From Bdellovibrio sp. NC01 (lineage in GTDB: Bacteria; Bdellovibrionota; Bdellovibrionia; Bdellovibrionales; Bdellovibrionaceae), in the NCBI RefSeq assembly GCF_006874625.1, contig NZ_CP030034.1:496001-560000 (forward strand): a stretch of 64,000 bases of DNA, given 5' to 3'. Under the pieces are notes generated by a model. The model was given only the letters and a program-made list of their open reading frames with translations. It searched no databases and was not told where the DNA came from. The position numbers and the translations under genes were made by a program. This document shows, piece after piece, positions 36,248-48,235 of this stretch; the stretch's first letter is position 1, and every line of letters starts with the position of its first letter.

Positions 36248-37837
36248 TTAGAAAAAGATGCCAAGTTTTTCTTTGAAGTTATCGGCTGTGACTCTTCTTT
36301 CGCCGCTGTCTAAGTATTGGCGGCAAATTCTTTTATTCAATTTTTGAACTGCGAAATAGATTTGGAATTTTTCAACACCAAGTTCTTTTGCTTGAGCTTC
36401 TGTTGCTTTGTAATCAAACGCGTGATCGCAGTCTTTCGATTGCACAGCCTCTTGGAAGGCCTTCATGTGCGGCTTTTCAACTTTTGCGACAAGGTCTTTT
36501 AAGTTGCTGACCCCGGCGCGCTCAACAGCAGGGAAGCGTACGCGCGCGTATTCTATGCTGTTGTATAATGCCAAGGGGTTGTTGCCTTGTTCGTGAGTCA
36601 TACCTTTTTGATTCAGCACTTCTTTTGCAGCCTCAATGCTTAAGCAAGACAAGAAACCCGATTTCAAACTTGGCTCTTCTAACATTTTTAAGTTTTGATT
36701 AAAGCAGCTGCCTGAAATTTTAGTAACGAACTTTGCATCAGCCTTACCGTCGAACGCCAAGAAATCTTTTTCATAAGGTGATTGTTTGTAATCAGGGCAC
36801 GCGCCTGTGAATTCGATGCCGCCGTAAACAACATCTTTCACGAATTTATACTTTTCAGCGCTGACTTGTTTCAAACGTTGGGGAGCGTAACGATAAGCAG
36901 AGACACTCTCTGCGAAATCTTCGAACGGATTTGTTTTCGCATAGATCGAAACGGATTTTGAACCGGGGTGCAGGCGCCAGTCCAAGTCGTGTTTGGATTG
37001 ACCTTTTTTAGCTTCGCTAGATTCCCAGCCAGAAACGCGCAACCACTCTGGTGATACGTCCATGGAATTTGAATGCAGGGCTGCCCAGTTGTGACCAAAT
37101 TCGTGATAGATCGAATATTGGCGCACGGGTTGTGTTTCATTGTTCCACACATCGAAGACTTCGATGCTGGCGTTCGCTATGGTGCCTTCGCCGTTTGCGT
37201 AACCATAGCCGCGCTTAAAGTGTGTCATCTTTTGATTTAGATCAAGTGGCAATAAGAACGAAGGAACTGCTTCGATCGCTTTCATGACGTCGCGGATTTC
37301 TGAAGCTTTCCATTTGTCGGCGTTGCCCCACACGAGGTGTGAGAGATTCAAATCGTACTCGGTTAGGAGTAAAAGAATCAGTGGGCCTTCTTCTTGCCCG
37401 AAAATTCTTTGCACAGCACACAGAACTTTCGTGCAACCACGAGCTTCACCGAAAGCTTTCTTCACTTGGTCTTCTTTGTAGTTCACGTTTGCAAAATAAG
37501 ATGCAGGGCCTGTCGGCAAAGTCACAAGCTGCATGAAGCGATAGATCAGCTCAGGATGCTCATCTTCGAAGCGAATGCCGGCAACTTCATACACAGCAGG
37601 AAGTTCGACGTTAGAAAGATCAGAATATTTTTTCAGGAAGTTCTGTACGTTGTTGCGACGAACGTGATCTTGGTTCACGCAACGTGGATTTGCCATTTCT
37701 TCTTCAGTCGCAGAATGAAACGGCGCCTGTGCTGGCTCCCTCGACGTTGGTCCATGAGTGAAAATGCGATCCGCATCGTAGTAAAGCGGAAACGAAAACG
37801 TCACAACTAAGAAAGCAAATACGACGAACTTAAACAT
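36248..37837 (-). CDS. Secreted zinc metalloprotease (gluzincin-like)
   Basis: 529 residues. N-terminal signal or anchor (about 1-20, FVVFAFLVVTFSFPLYY). HEFGHNWAALH at about residue 243 is an HExxH zinc site, and the later NPFEDFAESVSAY supplies the Glu expected as third ligand, so the catalytic set is complete. Eight or more Cys, including CTKVLCAVQ. The substrate is unknown; in a predator, prey-wall or protein digestion is plausible. The AGGAG ribosome site sits in one arm of a perfect 12-base inverted repeat (37840-37879), suggesting translational control. The lipoprotein gene upstream (37895) may share its transcript. Confidence 0.8.
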   Translation of the reverse strand: MFKFVVFAFLVVTFSFPLYYDADRIFTHGPTSREPAQAPFHSATEEEMANPRCVNQDHVRRNNVQNFLKKYSDLSNVELPAVYEVAGIRFEDEHPELIYRFMQLVTLPTGPASYFANVNYKEDQVKKAFGEARGCTKVLCAVQRIFGQEEGPLILLLLTEYDLNLSHLVWGNADKWKASEIRDVMKAIEAVPSFLLPLDLNQKMTHFKRGYGYANGEGTIANASIEVFDVWNNETQPVRQYSIYHEFGHNWAALHSNSMDVSPEWLRVSGWESSEAKKGQSKHDLDWRLHPGSKSVSIYAKTNPFEDFAESVSAYRYAPQRLKQVSAEKYKFVKDVVYGGIEFTGACPDYKQSPYEKDFLAFDGKADAKFVTKISGSCFNQNLKMLEEPSLKSGFLSCLSIEAAKEVLNQKGMTHEQGNNPLALYNSIEYARVRFPAVERAGVSNLKDLVAKVEKPHMKAFQEAVQSKDCDHAFDYKATEAQAKELGVEKFQIYFAVQKLNKRICRQYLDSGERRVTADNFKEKLGIFF

Positions 37838-37839
37838 GC

Positions 37840-37879
37840 AAACTCCTGAAGCACCTACATCGGTTAACTTCAGGAGTTT
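37840..37879 (-). promoter_or_regulatory. Hairpin that would sequester the ribosome site of the metalloprotease
   Basis: Perfect 12-base inverted repeat AAACTCCTGAAG / 16-base loop / CTTCAGGAGTTT. On the minus-strand mRNA the second arm contains AGGAG five bases before the ATG at 37837. No U-run follows, so it is not a standard terminator. Confidence 0.65.
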
Positions 37880-37894
37880 CTTAATGATTTATCT

Positions 37895-39729: not shown

Positions 39730-39981
39730 GAAAGACCTCCTTGATCTGCTCATTTTCACTCATACAAGAGAGTGAAATAAGCGGGGAGTTCAGCACTGCA
39801 TGAATACAAAAAAATCACTGCGCAATCGCAGAATCAACCGGAACAGAATTACCAAAAAAACTGTGGCTAGGTCTGTAGAGGGTCACCTGTCTAAGTCTTG
39901 AACACGTGAATGCTTATTAGTCACAGCTGAGGGTGGATTCAGTCTTGCTTTGTTAGGCACACGTTGAAGAAAGGACCTGTT

Positions 39982-41022
39982 ATGAAGATGTCGAAAGTGA
40001 TCTTGGCACTTGCGTGTACGCTATCTTTGGAATCTTTGGCGGTGGCTAAACAAGTGGATAATTCGGAAGCTGCAAGCTGCGGAACCATTGACGTACGTGA
40101 TGGCATGCAAGGCGATCTTAAGAAGCATTTCCAGACACCTGTGAATCAGGGCAGTGTTGGTTGGTGTTACGGCTATGCCGCCTCTGACGTCCTTTCACAA
40201 AAAGTGGGTCAACCGGTTTCAGCGGTTCATACCTCTGCTTATTATCAAACACAAATTGGAACTCTAGGCCGTTGGGGTCGCTCGATTCTTTACGGAGCTG
40301 ACGGTGAAACTACAGGCGGCTTCATTGGTGCGGCGCTTGATGAAATGAAAGAACTTGGTATGGCATGCACAACTCGTGGTGTAACAAGCCAAGGTGTTTT
40401 TCCTTACGAGCTGACTCCTGGTTACGTATCTCGTGGCGATACGGCTTTCTTTATTGATGGCATTTCAAAAATCCAAAACAACACATGTGATTCATACTGT
40501 GAACAGAAGATGAGTTATATGGTGAAACACTTCACGCCGAACTTAACAATGAGCCAATTGATTTCTTACGTACGTTCGAATTCACAGCTTAAGATCGATC
40601 AGTTGTTGTTCAATATCGTAGATGCTTCTTGTGGCAACAATAAGGTGCGCGTGTATCCATGGTTGAAAGTTCAATCTGGTGTCGAGCAACCGCAACCGAA
40701 TACAAAAAATTACGTAGGCATTGATGAGACGAGAACATTTATCTACAAATTGAACAAAGCTCTTGAGAGAGGCAAAGTTGTTGGTCTTGAATACAACGCA
40801 AAATACATCACAGAAGTGGGCGGCGTATTCGGTGGCTTCCACGCATCGACTGTAATTGGTCGTAAGATGATCAACGGTCAATGTTACTACAACGTTCGTA
40901 ACTCTTGGGGCAAGACGTGCAGCTATAAACCGGGTATCATCTGCTCGCCAGATGATGGTAGTTACTGGGTTCAAAAGGATACGATGAGATTGATGTCCAC
41001 GAAGATCGTTTACGTAGACTAA
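39982..41022 (+). CDS. Secreted papain-like (C1) cysteine protease
   Basis: 346 residues. Signal peptide (about 1-22, ending LAVAKQ), mature papain fold with catalytic Cys in TPVNQGSVGWCYGYAASD, catalytic His in GGFHASTVIG and Asn in NVRNSWG, in the proper order. Gln of the oxyanion hole is the QG before WC. About ten Cys. No long inhibitory propeptide is present. A TTG at 39964 is in frame, but the ATG at 39982 has AAAGGA at good spacing. Likely digests protein outside the cytoplasm. Confidence 0.88.
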   Translation: MKMSKVILALACTLSLESLAVAKQVDNSEAASCGTIDVRDGMQGDLKKHFQTPVNQGSVGWCYGYAASDVLSQKVGQPVSAVHTSAYYQTQIGTLGRWGRSILYGADGETTGGFIGAALDEMKELGMACTTRGVTSQGVFPYELTPGYVSRGDTAFFIDGISKIQNNTCDSYCEQKMSYMVKHFTPNLTMSQLISYVRSNSQLKIDQLLFNIVDASCGNNKVRVYPWLKVQSGVEQPQPNTKNYVGIDETRTFIYKLNKALERGKVVGLEYNAKYITEVGGVFGGFHASTVIGRKMINGQCYYNVRNSWGKTCSYKPGIICSPDDGSYWVQKDTMRLMSTKIVYVD

Positions 41023-42186: not shown

Positions 42187-42302
42187 GCAAAGCTCCTGTT
42201 AAAAAAATGTATTATCACTGAGTTTTGTCAGGAAATTAACGAGATTCCTTTAATGACGATTAAAAAGCTGAAAGGCTTCTCATTGCAATACATTTTTGTG
42301 TT

Positions 42303-42328
42303 TAGACTCTCGCGTTCTAGACCGAAAA
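42303..42328 (+). promoter_or_regulatory. Sigma-28-like promoter of tandem-family copy 1
   Basis: TAGACTCT (5/8), 10 bases, ACCGAAAA (6/8). The -10 ends nine bases before the ATG at 42338, with no ribosome site between. Similar in form to the copy 3 element. Confidence 0.4.
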
Positions 42329-42337
42329 GTAGTTTGT

Positions 42338-43687
42338 ATGGAGAAACTTGTACTACTCTTATTCTCTGTATTCATCGGTACGCTGTTTGGTGTGCATGCC
42401 CAAGCAGGGGGCCTTAATTACGAAGTTGCGCCGTCTCAAACACTCGATTCCAACTCTGAATATCAAACAACTCAAAATTCACGCTTTAATAATTTATCGA
42501 CGACTTCATGTATGGCGAATCTTCAACGTCTTGTTGAAGCATGTCGCACGAAAAACGAAGCAGCCACGAATTCATGTGACGAGAAATCAGACTCTGGTGT
42601 GATGAATACCGTTCGTCAGGCGTCTTCATTGTTAGGCACTGCAACCGCGGCAAGTGTGCAAGCCGCATGTACAAATATGGCGAAATATTCTGCAGCAGCC
42701 AATGCCGCGTTAGCAGCGTATGATGCGAATTGTTCAAGTGACATCGGCAGTTGTACCTCGGCCTGCCAGCAAGCTGTCAATTATTGGGAGTCAAATAACT
42801 ACTGCCGTGAAACGGGAGCGAATGGTCCGCCATCACCGTGGCCATCTGATTCAATCTATTTACAAGCTAAGGAAAAATTAAGTACGTGCCGAAGCTTGAC
42901 GTCAAAAGCACAAGATGCGCAGAAGGCTGCGCAAAATTATATGTTAACAATGGCAAACGCTTCGAATTGCGCACAGGCAAGTTCGGGAACTTCAGATGCG
43001 CAAGTGCAAGCACTTTGTCAGGCGAATCCGAATCTTGAAGGTTGTACCGCAAGTGGGCCCGTCGATTGTACGAAGCCAGAGTTAGCGTCCAACAAAGTTT
43101 GTATCTGTTCAAAAAATCCTAATGATCCGCAATGTATGAATGTCAAAACCGCAAACTCTGGAACGACAGTATTAGGTTCCAACACTCCTCTTACGGGGAG
43201 TGGGGCTAATGATTTAGACTTGGGCGGTGGTGATTTGAATGGTCTGCCACTTCCAGAGCAAGGCACTCCTTCAAGTGGAGTGGGTGAGTCTGTTGATGGT
43301 AAGCAAGGAGCTTCCGCAAATTTATCCGGAGATGATTTAAAATCCTCCGGCGCGGGAGCAACGGCAAAAAGCGGTGAAGCTGCAGCGAAAGGAAAATCTC
43401 CGACAGAAGTTACCGCAGGATTTTATGGCGGAGGTTCCGGAGGCGGTTATGGAGGTGATGGCTCTGGATCTGAAGGTACTCCACGCGGGATGATGGAGCG
43501 TGCAGTAAGTGCGTTGAAAAAAGGCGGAACGGATTTACGTCAATTTCTTCCAGGTGGAAATATGGATCCACGCGCACGCGGCCTTGCGGGTGTGTCGGGA
43601 CCTGATGGCATCACGGGACCGAACTCGAATATATGGCATAAGATTCAGAATCGTTATCAGGTTGTTACTCCAAGTTTGATTCCCTAG
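42338..43687 (+). CDS. Tandem secreted Cys-rich family, copy 1
   Basis: 449 residues. Signal peptide to about 20 (FGVHAQA). Helical Ala/Gln-rich domain A (about 50-160) with TSCMANLQRLVEAC, TNSCDEKSDSG and SACQQAVNYW; domain B (about 180-275) with CRSLTSKAQDAQKAAQNYM, CQANPNLEGC, VDCTKPEL and VCICSKNPNDPQC; Gly/Ser-rich linker; and the 52-residue end block starting LRQFLPGG, with SGPDGITGPN, KIQNRY and a final Pro. Four such genes lie in a row. An upstream in-frame start at 42296 would destroy the signal peptide. Function unknown; layout suggests an exported, disulfide-bonded protein whose C terminus is recognised by something. Confidence 0.85.
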   Translation: MEKLVLLLFSVFIGTLFGVHAQAGGLNYEVAPSQTLDSNSEYQTTQNSRFNNLSTTSCMANLQRLVEACRTKNEAATNSCDEKSDSGVMNTVRQASSLLGTATAASVQAACTNMAKYSAAANAALAAYDANCSSDIGSCTSACQQAVNYWESNNYCRETGANGPPSPWPSDSIYLQAKEKLSTCRSLTSKAQDAQKAAQNYMLTMANASNCAQASSGTSDAQVQALCQANPNLEGCTASGPVDCTKPELASNKVCICSKNPNDPQCMNVKTANSGTTVLGSNTPLTGSGANDLDLGGGDLNGLPLPEQGTPSSGVGESVDGKQGASANLSGDDLKSSGAGATAKSGEAAAKGKSPTEVTAGFYGGGSGGGYGGDGSGSEGTPRGMMERAVSALKKGGTDLRQFLPGGNMDPRARGLAGVSGPDGITGPNSNIWHKIQNRYQVVTPSLIP

Positions 43688-43716
43688 ATGTTTTGGGCAT
43701 TTTTTTAAGGGAGATG

Positions 43717-43729
43717 TCTCACTATGAGA
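43717..43729. promoter_or_regulatory. Palindrome TCTCA-CTA-TGAGA between copies 1 and 2
   Basis: The same TCTCA-N3-TGAGA pattern recurs after copy 2 (45172-45184). Possible operator or RNA hairpin. Confidence 0.35.
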
Positions 43730-43752
43730 TGATTCAAAACAGTAATCTACAA

Positions 43753-43780
43753 TCAAGTTAGTTTGATTACATTCCGATAA
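43753..43780 (+). promoter_or_regulatory. Sigma-28-like promoter of tandem-family copy 2
   Basis: TCAAGTTA (6/8), 12 bases, TCCGATAA (7/8). The -10 ends eight bases before the ATG at 43789; no Shine-Dalgarno. Best match of the four family promoters. Confidence 0.6.
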
Positions 43781-43788
43781 GTCCAGCT

Positions 43789-45162
43789 ATGGGAATGAAA
43801 TACGTTTTTGCCATAGCAGCCGCCGTTTTATTGTTCGGAAGTCACACGTTTGCCGAGACTCGTGCTGAATGTGCGAATAGTTGCAACTCAACGTTTGGAA
43901 CGGGCGATTCTGTAGGTGGCAGAGACTGTCTTAGTAAGTGCGCTTCCATTCCCGAACAACAACCCGTTCAAGCCTCCGGCCCAAGTTGCATGGATCGCCT
44001 TCAGCAATTGGTGAATGCATGCCAAACTGCGAGTGATACAGCCAGAAATTCTTGCGACGAAAGTCAAAACACGGGCATGGCGCAGGCACAACAAGCTGCG
44101 GTGGTTCTTGGTCAGCAAGTTTCAACCAGCGTTCAAGCTGCATGTTCAAGCATGGGTAAAATTTCTCAAGCTGCAAATGCGGCAACCGCAGCCTACCAAA
44201 TGAATTGTGCAAGCGATGTGAACTCATGTAATTCTACGTGTGATCAAGCGCTTCAATTCTACAATCAGCAAGGTGGTTGTATCGTCGGTCCTCCATTGCC
44301 AGGACAAAGAAGTATGGCGGGGGCGCCAACTGAAATTAATGATCTAAAAAAAGTGTGTAGCGATCTTAGAAAAAAAGCAGACACGGCTCAACAAGCGGTG
44401 AACAACTTTTTAACGACGACGTTGCAAGCACAAAACTGTGCGAATGATTCTTCAGGCACATCAGCTGCCGTGACACCAGAATTGTGTGCGGCAAATCCTA
44501 ATCTTGCGGGTTGTACTGCGGCAGGAACAGTGGATTGTACAAAACCAGAATTGGCGAACACCAACAAAGTTTGTATTTGTGCGAAAAGTCCAAACGACCC
44601 TCAATGTATGAGCGGTCAAAGCGCTGGCAACTCGACAAGTCTTGCAAGCACTGGATCTATTTCAGGATCTCGTACCGCGAGCAATTCTGATTTAGGAACT
44701 GATGGTGACATGTTTGGTTTGCCACAAATTGATCAAGCACCAGTGAATAGAACTCCTGGCGATGCGATTGAAGGTAAACAAGGTGCGGGTGCACCGTTAG
44801 GCAGTGATGGCGGCGGTTCTGGCTCTGGCGGAGCAGGCGGTCGTGGTGGCGGCGGTGGTAAATCGACGGATCCAATTCAAGTCACTGCAGGTTTTTATTC
44901 TGGCGGTGGTGGCGGCGGCGGCTGGGGCGGTGGCTCTGGTGGAGCTGGCGAAAAAAATCCGCAAGGCATGGGCGGCTTAGCTGCAAAGGCCGGAGTTCCG
45001 GGTGGACCGAATTTGCGTCAATTCCTTCCGGGTGGAACCTTCGATCCACGCAGAGGAGTCGCAGGCGCTTCGGGTCCTGATGGAATCACGGGACCTAACT
45101 CAAATATTTGGATGAAGATTCAAAATCGTTATCAAGTGGTAGGCCCGAGCTTGATGCCATAA
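43789..45162 (+). CDS. Tandem secreted Cys-rich family, copy 2
   Basis: 457 residues. Signal peptide (ending SHTFAE); a Cys-rich N-terminal insert (RAECANSCNSTFG, DCLSKCASI); domain A with CMDRLQQLVNAC, SCDESQNTGMAQAQQAAVVLG, AACSSMGKISQAANAATAAYQ; domain B with LQAQNCAN, CAANPNLAGCTAAG, VDCTKPELAN, VCICAKSPNDPQC; a DLGTDGDMFGLPQIDQAP segment; a glycine run; and the shared end block. Domain B and the C-terminal half are almost identical to copy 3. The Met at 43795 is an alternative start. Function unknown. Confidence 0.87.
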   Translation: MGMKYVFAIAAAVLLFGSHTFAETRAECANSCNSTFGTGDSVGGRDCLSKCASIPEQQPVQASGPSCMDRLQQLVNACQTASDTARNSCDESQNTGMAQAQQAAVVLGQQVSTSVQAACSSMGKISQAANAATAAYQMNCASDVNSCNSTCDQALQFYNQQGGCIVGPPLPGQRSMAGAPTEINDLKKVCSDLRKKADTAQQAVNNFLTTTLQAQNCANDSSGTSAAVTPELCAANPNLAGCTAAGTVDCTKPELANTNKVCICAKSPNDPQCMSGQSAGNSTSLASTGSISGSRTASNSDLGTDGDMFGLPQIDQAPVNRTPGDAIEGKQGAGAPLGSDGGGSGSGGAGGRGGGGGKSTDPIQVTAGFYSGGGGGGGWGGGSGGAGEKNPQGMGGLAAKAGVPGGPNLRQFLPGGTFDPRRGVAGASGPDGITGPNSNIWMKIQNRYQVVGPSLMP

Positions 45163-45171
45163 GCAAAAGCG

Positions 45172-45184
45172 TCTCAATTTGAGA
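45172..45184. promoter_or_regulatory. Palindrome TCTCA-ATT-TGAGA between copies 2 and 3
   Basis: Matches the palindrome after copy 1. GATGAG-AC-CTCATC (45219-45232) lies further on, just before the sigma-28-like element. Confidence 0.35.
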
Positions 45185-45234
45185 GCAGCAATTAATTTTC
45201 AATTAAAGAGCGTTCATAGATGAGACCTCATCTT

Positions 45235-45260
45235 TAGAGCGTATTCCCACATTCCGATGA
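45235..45260 (+). promoter_or_regulatory. Sigma-28-like promoter of tandem-family copy 3
   Basis: TAGAGCGT (5/8), 10 bases, TCCGATGA (6/8); the ACATTCCGAT stretch is identical to copy 2. The -10 ends seven bases before the ATG at 45268; no Shine-Dalgarno. Confidence 0.45.
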
Positions 45261-45267
45261 ATATATC

Positions 45268-46656
45268 ATGGGAAATTTCGGATTTTTTCTATGTATTCTC
45301 ATGATGGTCATGAGTGGTCGTGCTTTTGCCGGCTACACGGCCGAGTCCTATGCTGGTATTCCCTCTTCGCAGCTTAATGAAGCTCAAGGCGAGCAACGTG
45401 AAATGTACTGTCTTGGAAGAAATCTCAATCAGGCAGACCTGCAAAGTTGTATGCAAACAGGAAATTTGCCTGCGACACCAGCCGGGCCAACATGCTCCCA
45501 ACGACTGAATCAGCTTCTTTCGACCTGCACTTCAAAAACTCAAGAAGCCACAAACTCTTGTGATGAATCTAATAACTCAGGTATGGCTCAAGCGCAGCAA
45601 GCAGCAGTTGTTTTAGGGCGACAAGTTTCTGCAAGTGTTCAGGCCGCATGTTCAAGCATGGGTAAGATTTCACAAGCAGCAAACGCCGCGACAGCGGCGT
45701 ACCAAATGAGTTGTTCGAATTCAGTAGGTAATTGCACCAGTGCCTGTCAGGATGTCGTTTCATACTATAACAGCACGAAGGGATGTGCTTCAGAAAATAA
45801 CGGCGTCGCTATTATGTCTCTGGATTCTATTCAATCTGAAAAGAAATCTTGCACAGACTTGAAGGCGAAGGCTGATACTGCACAGCAAGCGATGAACAAT
45901 TTTTTGCAAACCACTTTGCAAGCGCAGAATTGTGCGAATGAATCTTCGGGTACATCAGCAGCCGTGACACCAGAATTGTGTGCGGCAAATCCTAATCTTG
46001 CGGGATGTACGGCCGCAGGAACTGTCGATTGTACGAAGCCGGAATTAGCGAATACCAATAAGGTTTGTATCTGTTCAAAAAATCCAAACGATCCACAATG
46101 TATGAGCGGGCAAAGCGCAGGTAACTCTACTAGCCTTGCAAGCACAGGAGCAATTTCGGGTTCACGTACCGCGAGTAGTTCAGATTTAGGAACTGATGGT
46201 GACATGTTTGGATTGCCAACGATTGATCAAGCACCTGTGAACAGAACTCCAGGCGAAGCTGTTGAAGGTAAACAAGGTGCGGGCGCACCGTTAGGCAGTG
46301 ATGGTGGAGGTTCAGGTTCTGGTGGTGCTGCGGGCAAAGGTGGCGCTAGCGGTAAAGCAACGGATCCTGTGCAAGTCACTGCAGGTTTCTATTCTGGTGG
46401 CGGTGGAGGTGGCGGCTGGGGTAGCGGTTCCGGTGGCGCTGGAGAAAAAAATCCGCAAGGCGTGGGTGGCTTAGCTGCAAAAGCAGGATTGCCAGGTGGA
46501 CCAAATCTTCGCCAATTCCTTCCCGGAGGAAGTTTTGATCCACGCCGAGGTGTTGCAGGTGCTTCGGGACCTGATGGCATCACGGGACCAAATTCAAATA
46601 TCTGGCAGAAGATTCAAAATCGTTACCAAGTCGTCGGCCCTAGCTTAATGCCGTAA
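45268..46656 (+). CDS. Tandem secreted Cys-rich family, copy 3
   Basis: 462 residues. Signal peptide (ending GRAFAGY); an N-terminal AESYAGIPSSQLNEAQ module shared only with copy 4 (ADAYAGTDSSKLTEAQ); domain A with CSQRLNQLLSTC, SCDESNNSGMAQAQQAAVVLG; domain B nearly identical to copy 2; Gly-rich run; shared end block with SFDPRRGVAGASGPDG. About 18 Cys in total, an even number consistent with disulfides. Followed by a terminator, so copies 1-3 might be read together while copy 4 is separate. Function unknown. Confidence 0.87.
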   Translation: MGNFGFFLCILMMVMSGRAFAGYTAESYAGIPSSQLNEAQGEQREMYCLGRNLNQADLQSCMQTGNLPATPAGPTCSQRLNQLLSTCTSKTQEATNSCDESNNSGMAQAQQAAVVLGRQVSASVQAACSSMGKISQAANAATAAYQMSCSNSVGNCTSACQDVVSYYNSTKGCASENNGVAIMSLDSIQSEKKSCTDLKAKADTAQQAMNNFLQTTLQAQNCANESSGTSAAVTPELCAANPNLAGCTAAGTVDCTKPELANTNKVCICSKNPNDPQCMSGQSAGNSTSLASTGAISGSRTASSSDLGTDGDMFGLPTIDQAPVNRTPGEAVEGKQGAGAPLGSDGGGSGSGGAAGKGGASGKATDPVQVTAGFYSGGGGGGGWGSGSGGAGEKNPQGVGGLAAKAGLPGGPNLRQFLPGGSFDPRRGVAGASGPDGITGPNSNIWQKIQNRYQVVGPSLMP

Positions 46657-46680
46657 AGAAAAACCAAAATCAGATGAGAC

Positions 46681-46708
46681 AAAAACGCAAGTGGCCCTTG
46701 CGTTTTTT
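46681..46708 (+). terminator. Terminator after copy 3
   Basis: AAACGCAAG / TGGCC / CTTGCGTTT followed by T-run. Confidence 0.88.
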
Positions 46709-46800
46709 ATTTGTGTCGCTAACAGTTCACTACACGAAATTTAAATCTTTATTCTGCATCCTCGATAAAATTTATTTAAAAAACATGGAGTGAATATGGA

Positions 46801-46828
46801 TCAAGAGGCTGTATGCGCAGCCCGATAG
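46801..46828 (+). promoter_or_regulatory. Sigma-28-like promoter of tandem-family copy 4
   Basis: TCAAGAGG (4/8), 12 bases, CCCGATAG (6/8). Same spacing as copy 2. The -10 ends nine bases before the ATG at 46838; no Shine-Dalgarno. Confidence 0.4.
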
Positions 46829-46837
46829 TTTTTGCGT

Positions 46838-48235
46838 ATGAGAAAGTTCGCAATCACTCTTAATTTCTTAGTGTCTCTTACGATGCAGAACGTTTGCGCA
46901 GGCTATGTGGCCGATGCGTATGCTGGAACGGACAGCTCAAAATTGACGGAAGCGCAGATGAATCAGCGCACGGAATTTTGCTTAAATCAAAATAGCGATT
47001 CAACTCTTCCTGCTTATAACACTTGTTTGCAAACGGGTGTTTATAATAACACGTCGTCAACGGCAGCGAGCTCGGCCAGTGGTGTGACGTGCATGCAGCG
47101 TCTGACAGAGCTTGCGAAAGCTTGCACGACTGCGACAACAGACGCCACGTCTTCTTGCGATGATTCACAAAATTCCGGATTAGCACAAGCACAACAAGTG
47201 GCAGTGACATTAGGCCAACAAGTTTCTTCCAGTGTCACGGCAGCATGTTCGACATTAGGCAAAGTTATGCAAGGTGCGAATGCAGCGACGGCGGCTTATC
47301 AGTTGAGTTGTCAGAATTCAGTTAGCACTTGCAGTTCGGCCTGTCAGACCGCGATTCAATATTATAACGACAACAAAGGTTGTTCTGCACAAAACGGTGG
47401 GATCGAAGCGGGCAATCTTTCCTCCATTCAAACGGATAAAAAATCTTGTACGGCATTGAGTGCAAAAGCTTCAACGGCACAACAAGCATTAACAAACTTT
47501 TTGCAAACGACGATGCAAGCCCAAAACTGCTCGACGGCAACCGATGGTACATCAGTTGCCGATTTATGTACGACAAATCCCAGCTTGGCAGGTTGTTCAA
47601 CGACGGTGGTCGACTGTACAAGTGCGGCGATGGCGACGAATCAGGTTTGTATCTGTCAGAAGAATCCAAACGACGCCAGTTGCGTTGCAGGTTTATCAGC
47701 GACAACAGTGACATCTTCTGACGGGACAACGCTTGCTTCGCGTACCGCCAGCTCTGCCGACTCACTGGATGGTGATCTTTATGGTCTGCCTGAAGTGCAG
47801 CAAGCAGCGGTCACATCATCAGGTTCCGGCGATGTTGTCGATGGCAAGCAAGGGGCAAGTGCAAACATCTCAAGTGATGGGGTTAGCAGTTCAGGTGCTG
47901 CGGCAAATGCGAAGGCAGCAGGTAATGGCAAAACCGCAAACGAAGTTCCACAAGTAACAGGTGGTTTTTATTCGGGCGGTGGGGGCGGCTCAAGTTCAAG
48001 TGGTGGAAGCGGTTCCGACAATAGCAATCAAGAGCCAGGCCTAATTGAAAAGCTTGCGCAAAAAGCAGCAGGTGCGGTTCCTGATCTTCGTCAATTTTTG
48101 CCGGGGGGAACCATGGATCCACAACGTGGTGTCGCTGGAGTTTCCGGTCCCGATGGAATCACAGGACCGAATACAGATATTTGGAAGAAAATCCAAAATC
48201 GTTACAGAGTCGTTCAGCCGTCTTTGATGCCGTGA
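46838..48235 (+). CDS. Tandem secreted Cys-rich family, copy 4
   Basis: 465 residues, the most divergent copy. Signal peptide (ending NVCAGY), ADAYAGTDSSKLTEAQ module, domain A with CMQRLTELAKAC, SCDDSQNSGLAQAQQVAVTLG; domain B with AQNCSTATDGTS, CTTNPSLAGC, VDCTSAAM and VCICQKNPNDASC; DSLDGDLYGLPEVQQA; Gly/Ser run; end block with GTMDPQRGVAGVSGPDG and KIQNRYRVV. A TTG at 46832 is in frame, but the ATG is preferred by its distance from the -10. Its stop codon abuts the stop of convergent lysC. Function unknown. Confidence 0.87.
   Translation: MRKFAITLNFLVSLTMQNVCAGYVADAYAGTDSSKLTEAQMNQRTEFCLNQNSDSTLPAYNTCLQTGVYNNTSSTAASSASGVTCMQRLTELAKACTTATTDATSSCDDSQNSGLAQAQQVAVTLGQQVSSSVTAACSTLGKVMQGANAATAAYQLSCQNSVSTCSSACQTAIQYYNDNKGCSAQNGGIEAGNLSSIQTDKKSCTALSAKASTAQQALTNFLQTTMQAQNCSTATDGTSVADLCTTNPSLAGCSTTVVDCTSAAMATNQVCICQKNPNDASCVAGLSATTVTSSDGTTLASRTASSADSLDGDLYGLPEVQQAAVTSSGSGDVVDGKQGASANISSDGVSSSGAAANAKAAGNGKTANEVPQVTGGFYSGGGGGSSSSGGSGSDNSNQEPGLIEKLAQKAAGAVPDLRQFLPGGTMDPQRGVAGVSGPDGITGPNTDIWKKIQNRYRVVQPSLMP

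Follow-up and report, generated by a model that had tools for sequence, protein, structure and literature searches.

How Bdellovibrio recognises its prey, and how it uses its Tad (Flp) pili at entry, is the question on which the locus described here bears. The window analysed, a stretch of 64,000 nucleotides from the genome of Bdellovibrio sp. NC01 (contig NZ_CP030034.1, positions 496,001 to 560,000), contains four adjacent paralogous genes whose Cys-rich products carry export signals. From these genes and their relatives we name an order-wide cluster (a TadG-like gene, a gene of the window family, and a secreted partner gene) and an amplified, probably attack-phase family that is tied to the cluster by homology, by a shared tail motif, and by a shared promoter type.

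Four tandem genes for exported, Cys-rich proteins

A sequence-only reading of the window had described four tandem paralogues of 449, 457, 462, and 465 residues. These are present, all on the forward strand, and share approximately 43-80% pairwise identity, far above chance; for copies 2 and 3 the identity reaches 80% across most of their length. The start of the first gene had been placed at 42303 and is here corrected to the ATG at 42338, which gives the following genes.

42338-43687, forward strand: copy 1, 449 aa, signal peptide, 16 Cys
43789-45162, forward strand: copy 2, 457 aa, 20 Cys
45268-46656, forward strand: copy 3, 462 aa, 18 Cys after signal-peptide removal
46838-48235, forward strand: copy 4, 465 aa, 18 Cys after signal-peptide removal

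The tandem genes are flanked on one side by a glutathione peroxidase gene (gpx) and on the other by genes for an amino-acid kinase (lysC-like), an SLT transglycosylase, and flagellar rod and FlgA-type proteins. Elsewhere in the window, an exported protein (39964-41022, forward strand) has the papain-like motifs GWCYGYAASD, FHA, and NSWG and is without a Pfam match.

A common layout of signal peptide, helical core with 16 Cys, Gly/Ser linker, and conserved C-terminal tail is found in all pairs, and the core and tail were delimited as follows.

42500-43150, forward strand: helical Cys core and CIC module of copy 1
43978-44622, forward strand: helical Cys core and CIC module of copy 2 (215 aa, folded alone)
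45484-46116, forward strand: helical Cys core and CIC module of copy 3
47081-47698, forward strand: helical Cys core and CIC module of copy 4
43535-43684, forward strand: conserved C-terminal tail of copy 1 (LRQFLPGG...GPDGITGPNSNIWxKIQNRYQV..PSLIP)
45013-45159, forward strand: conserved C-terminal tail of copy 2
46507-46653, forward strand: conserved C-terminal tail of copy 3
48086-48232, forward strand: conserved C-terminal tail of copy 4

The export signals reported earlier can be read in all four proteins as Sec-type signal peptides, called by eye as a hydrophobic stretch followed by an A-x-A-like site. The Cys motifs quoted in the sequence-only reading are consensus forms (SC-D-[ED]..[NS][ST]G, AAC[ST].[ML][GA]K, and VCIC.K.PND) that occur, with variation, in every copy. 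Its even number of Cys residues holds once the signal peptides are removed and fails in the raw counts (16, 20, 19, and 19 for copies 1 to 4), copies 3 and 4 each having one Cys inside the signal peptide. All 16 Cys columns of the core are kept in the four copies, and the proteins are probably disulfide-stabilised. The N-terminal modules are indeed variant: identity between copies is 11-36% over the signal peptide and N-terminal module, as against 77-96% for the tail, with the helical Cys core at 38-60%.

The tail, which ends in ..NRYQVVxPSLMP, contains no hydrophobic helix, and a sorting signal of the PEP-CTERM or MYXO-CTERM kind (motif, C-terminal transmembrane helix, and basic residues) was rejected on that ground. 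A general sorting or export tag on enzymes was also rejected, because among the loci examined the tail is found only on the window family or on the partner family described below.

The earlier failure to recognise a known family was borne out by searches of Pfam, NCBIfam, PHROGs, and PDB sequences, none of which returned a credible match. A Pfam search of the window proteins and of nine relatives matched neither TadE nor PF13400. AlphaFold2 models the core as a helical bundle and the linker and tail at low confidence (mean pLDDT of 51 for the whole of copy 2 and 67 for its core alone). The best Foldseek E values for the core were 0.05 and 0.11, and the best VIA-align Z score, 10.8, was to designed or generic helical bundles and lies within the range of unrelated bundles; these matches were treated as uninformative. 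Two specific identities were considered and set aside. A Tad minor or tip pilin (TadE, TadF, TadG, or KilLMN) is contradicted by the lack of a pilin-type N-terminal helix and of a TadE/TadG Pfam match, and by the position of the genes outside the tad locus; a PilY1-like tip adhesin, as judged by domain, is contradicted by the lack of a PilY1 or beta-propeller match in Pfam and by the helical model. A guess that the HD100 equivalents are bd0516-bd0527 led to no relevant paper, and we claim no equivalence.

FliA-type promoters and attack-phase timing

RNA-seq of B. bacteriovorus HD100 has defined a FliA (sigma-28)-like attack-phase consensus, TTAAG-N16-CCGATA, at 92 of 140 mapped promoters (PMC3627812). 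Sites of this type precede all four window genes, in the form T[TC][AT]AG-N16-CCGA[AT][AG], at one or two mismatches from the published consensus and with its exact spacing.

42301-42327, forward strand: FliA-like promoter of copy 1, TTTAG-N16-CCGAAA, 10 bases before the ATG
43753-43779, forward strand: FliA-like promoter of copy 2, TCAAG-N16-CCGATA, 9 bases before the ATG
45233-45259, forward strand: FliA-like promoter of copy 3, TTTAG-N16-CCGATG, 8 bases before the ATG
46801-46827, forward strand: FliA-like promoter of copy 4, TCAAG-N16-CCGATA, 10 bases before the ATG at 46838
46681-46707, forward strand: terminator-like hairpin and T run between copies 3 and 4 (consensus match only)

The window holds six sites of the form T[TC][AT]AG-N16-CCGA[AT][AG], against 0.5 expected; genome-wide, the broadened pattern is unspecific (51 sites versus 45 for the reversed control). 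As the pattern had been broadened after the sites were seen, the enrichment test uses the published consensus. Allowing at most two mismatches, that consensus is matched at 28 of 42 family genes and at 4 of 184 other genes in the loci from the genus (Fisher p = 3e-21, a value that overstates independence, the family genes being mutually related). The top gene among these others, with a one-mismatch site, is itself probably a distant paralogue (locus L044, below). The family member in the TadG-like cluster has the same type of site both in the NC01 genome (3830846-3830872) and in a second genome (L103). A FliA-type site also lies 22 bases before flp1 (Flp1_like by Pfam) in the Tad pilin operon of NC01, and it serves as a positive control because the Tad operon of HD100 (bd0109-bd0119) is FliA-regulated (PMC5430801). 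No excess of sigma-70 promoters over shuffled sequences was found.

Attack-phase expression, ventured in the sequence-only reading, is thus likely in NC01, on the evidence of FliA-type sites at all four genes that match the published consensus. The short distance from site to ATG suggests that the transcripts may be leaderless or nearly so. A single operon with one promoter is disfavoured by the separate site at each gene and by the terminator-like hairpin after copy 3. Such a site is a sign of timing and not of partnership, as FliA controls about two thirds of the mapped attack-phase promoters of HD100. A one-mismatch FliA-type site (37858-37884) also lies upstream of a gene elsewhere in the window (36248-37837, reverse strand) for an exported protein of 529 aa with a sub-threshold Peptidase_Mx match.

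The TadG-like cluster and the history of the family

Two more distant full-length relatives of the window genes are found in the NC01 genome, near 3829351 and 3554461, and a 563-aa protein encoded near 1244137 (locus L044, 5472-7163), with a similar tail, is probably a third distant paralogue. The relative near 3829351 comes immediately after the genome's only PF13400 gene and is itself followed by a gene for a second secreted protein, the partner. This three-gene cluster, consisting of a TadG-like gene, a gene of the window family, and the partner gene, is order-wide, and the PF13400 (TadG-like) gene occurs once per genome in nearly every genome. A profile of the window family aligns to one of the TadG-cluster gene across the order over 362 columns that include the Cys core and the tail (hhalign, E = 7e-44); the two are therefore homologous over most of their length. 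Judged by sequence comparison, the window proteins are members of an undescribed family of which the TadG-linked gene is the most widespread member.

Of 141 genomes of the order, 123 contain the partner family, whose C-terminus, GE.IGVA.DNIF.M..RRY, aligns to the family tail by profile (E = 2e-5). Recovery of the two partner genes of NC01 with a 29-residue tail profile was left uncounted, as the profile had been built with them. Where both partner and TadG-like gene were located (63 genomes), they lie within 8 kb of each other in 42 genomes and within 15 kb in 45; in the other 18 they were not found together, 16 of these having them on different contigs. The Tad core marker RcpC was present in 25 of 26 genomes checked and hence does not discriminate. 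The window genes themselves adjoin neither the TadG-like gene nor the Tad operon, the former being adjoined only by their paralogue. Genes for NamZ, a family 3 glycosyl hydrolase, and a kinase and nucleotidyltransferase, resembling peptidoglycan recycling, flank the TadG-like cluster at L042 and at other loci of its kind. In one genus of the family Bdellovibrionaceae a partner-family gene stands between fliI-like and fliJ-like genes (L163, L164, and L165; names assigned by eye).

Each of the 23 further genomes searched within the genus has members of the window family (1 to 10 matches per genome), and between gpx and lysC one to four family genes are also present in several further genera of Bdellovibrionaceae. 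In the tree, copy 4 groups with the sister pair formed by copies 2 and 3, and two genes from one related genome come closest to the window copies. The four genes are, on this tree, a lineage-specific expansion at an old locus. Copies also appear to decay, as is suggested by a 107-aa remnant of a family gene (L037, 5785-6108), its tail intact, that adjoins intact copies. In two genomes family genes adjoin genes of the RHS/DUF6531 type (L053 and L055). A Bdellovibrio-type family gene was also found in a record titled as a Streptomyces griseus MAG (L040), which is probably a mislabelled or contaminated bin.

Candidate roles and comparison with known systems

The linkage of the paralogue, the shared tail motif, and the shared promoter type lead us to place the window proteins, provisionally, in one assembly with the TadG-like minor pilin. 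This evidence, together with the exchangeable tips of Myxococcus Tad pili and the structural analogues predicted for them in Bdellovibrio, is the basis of the reading that we prefer while putting it somewhat short of an even chance: that these FliA-driven, attack-phase exported proteins, whose N-terminal modules change fast, belong to the tip complex of the Tad pilus as accessory parts other than pilins. The proteins would be made in the attack phase, each from the FliA-type promoter of its own gene, and exported by the Sec route. As amplified paralogues of a gene beside the single gene for a TadG-like protein (a large minor pilin) and its secreted partner, they may join the tip of the Tad/Flp pilus as accessory subunits that are not themselves pilins, much as PilY1 does on type IVa pili. 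The tail (..ITGP.SNIW.KI.NRY..), a form of which the partner also has, would serve to dock all of them in a single shared assembly, with the Gly/Ser linker as a flexible tether, and the helical Cys core and variable N-terminal module would be presented outward to the prey envelope. Several copies would then supply tips that can be exchanged for one another, for a purpose comparable to that of the four KilLMN tips in Myxococcus. A fuller version, in which a common docking tail, a tether, diversifying disulfide-rich heads, and separate attack-phase promoters make up an interchangeable set of non-pilin Tad tips for recognising or breaching different prey envelopes, we regard as unlikely.

The sequence-only reading had seen in the four proteins surface or extracellular components, perhaps for prey contact. 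Of that interpretation, the export signals, the Cys-rich core, the lack of a described family, the fast-changing N-termini, and likely attack-phase expression (from the FliA-type sites) stand; exit from the periplasm, surface exposure, and prey contact are conjectural parts of the tip proposal.

A rival reading takes the proteins as exported attack-phase adhesins or coat proteins that act at the surface or in the medium independently of Tad pili, their tail anchoring them to another envelope partner. Signal peptides, a Cys-rich helical core, a Gly/Ser linker, and FliA-type promoters would all be expected of such proteins, the window locus lies away from the Tad genes, and FliA drives cell-surface genes of other kinds (PMC3627812). 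We nonetheless think this explanation somewhat unlikely, for it leaves unexplained the order-wide relative linked to a TadG-like gene and the tail motif held in common with the cluster partner. These last two features fit equally well with periplasmic assembly factors that chaperone or gate the incorporation of the TadG-like pilin, the copies providing dosage or redundancy; an N-terminal module that is the fastest-changing part (11-36% identity) and a family turnover through lineage-specific duplication would, however, be unusual in a housekeeping assembly factor, and such a role seems to us quite improbable.

Rapid diversification and the likely attack-phase timing would also suit secreted effectors that are released into or onto the prey at entry, with the tail as their export signal, and in two genomes some related genes are near RHS genes and other exported genes. 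Against this, Pfam detected no enzymatic domain in any family member tested, and a tail confined, in the loci examined, to the window and partner families is unlike a general export tag; we consider effectors the least likely of the rivals and give them little credence. The preferred reading, that of Tad-tip accessories, yields a small and testable set of candidate tip components in a group whose tip has so far only been predicted (PMC12075869).

The known systems closest to the proposal differ from it in distinct ways, as is seen in PilY1, the operon for the pilus itself, and the Kil proteins. PilY1, a large, secreted protein with a beta-propeller, is the non-pilin tip adhesin of type IVa pili and is carried by minor pilins. 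The window proteins resemble it in their proposed role only: there is no sequence match, they model as helical Cys bundles, and the pilus concerned is of the Tad and not the type IVa kind.

In HD100, flp1, flp2, and flp4 of the Tad operon are needed for predation, and the flp pilins are required for predation but not for attachment (PMC5430801). The Tad/Flp operon of NC01 has the same FliA-type promoter as the window genes, and so probably follows the same attack-phase programme; the window genes differ in lying outside the operon and are undescribed in that study (PMC5430801). The Tad pili of Myxococcus (Kil) have exchangeable tips built around a large TadG-like subunit with predicted disulfides, and structural analogues of these tips have been predicted in Bdellovibrio, with gene names absent from the main text (PMC12075869). 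The KilLMN proteins are alike in their Tad context, large TadG-like subunit, predicted disulfides, and occurrence in predatory bacteria, and in having several paralogous versions with divergent distal domains (PMC12075869). KilL, KilM, and KilN are, however, all minor pilins with a pilin helix (PMC12075869), whereas the four proteins of the window lack that helix, begin with a signal peptide of the Sec type, and differ from them in core and tail. Variable pilus tips are already known; a family of the present build, not made up of pilins, driven by FliA, amplified in tandem, and related to a TadG-linked gene, is described in none of the non-subscription main texts searched and may be new.
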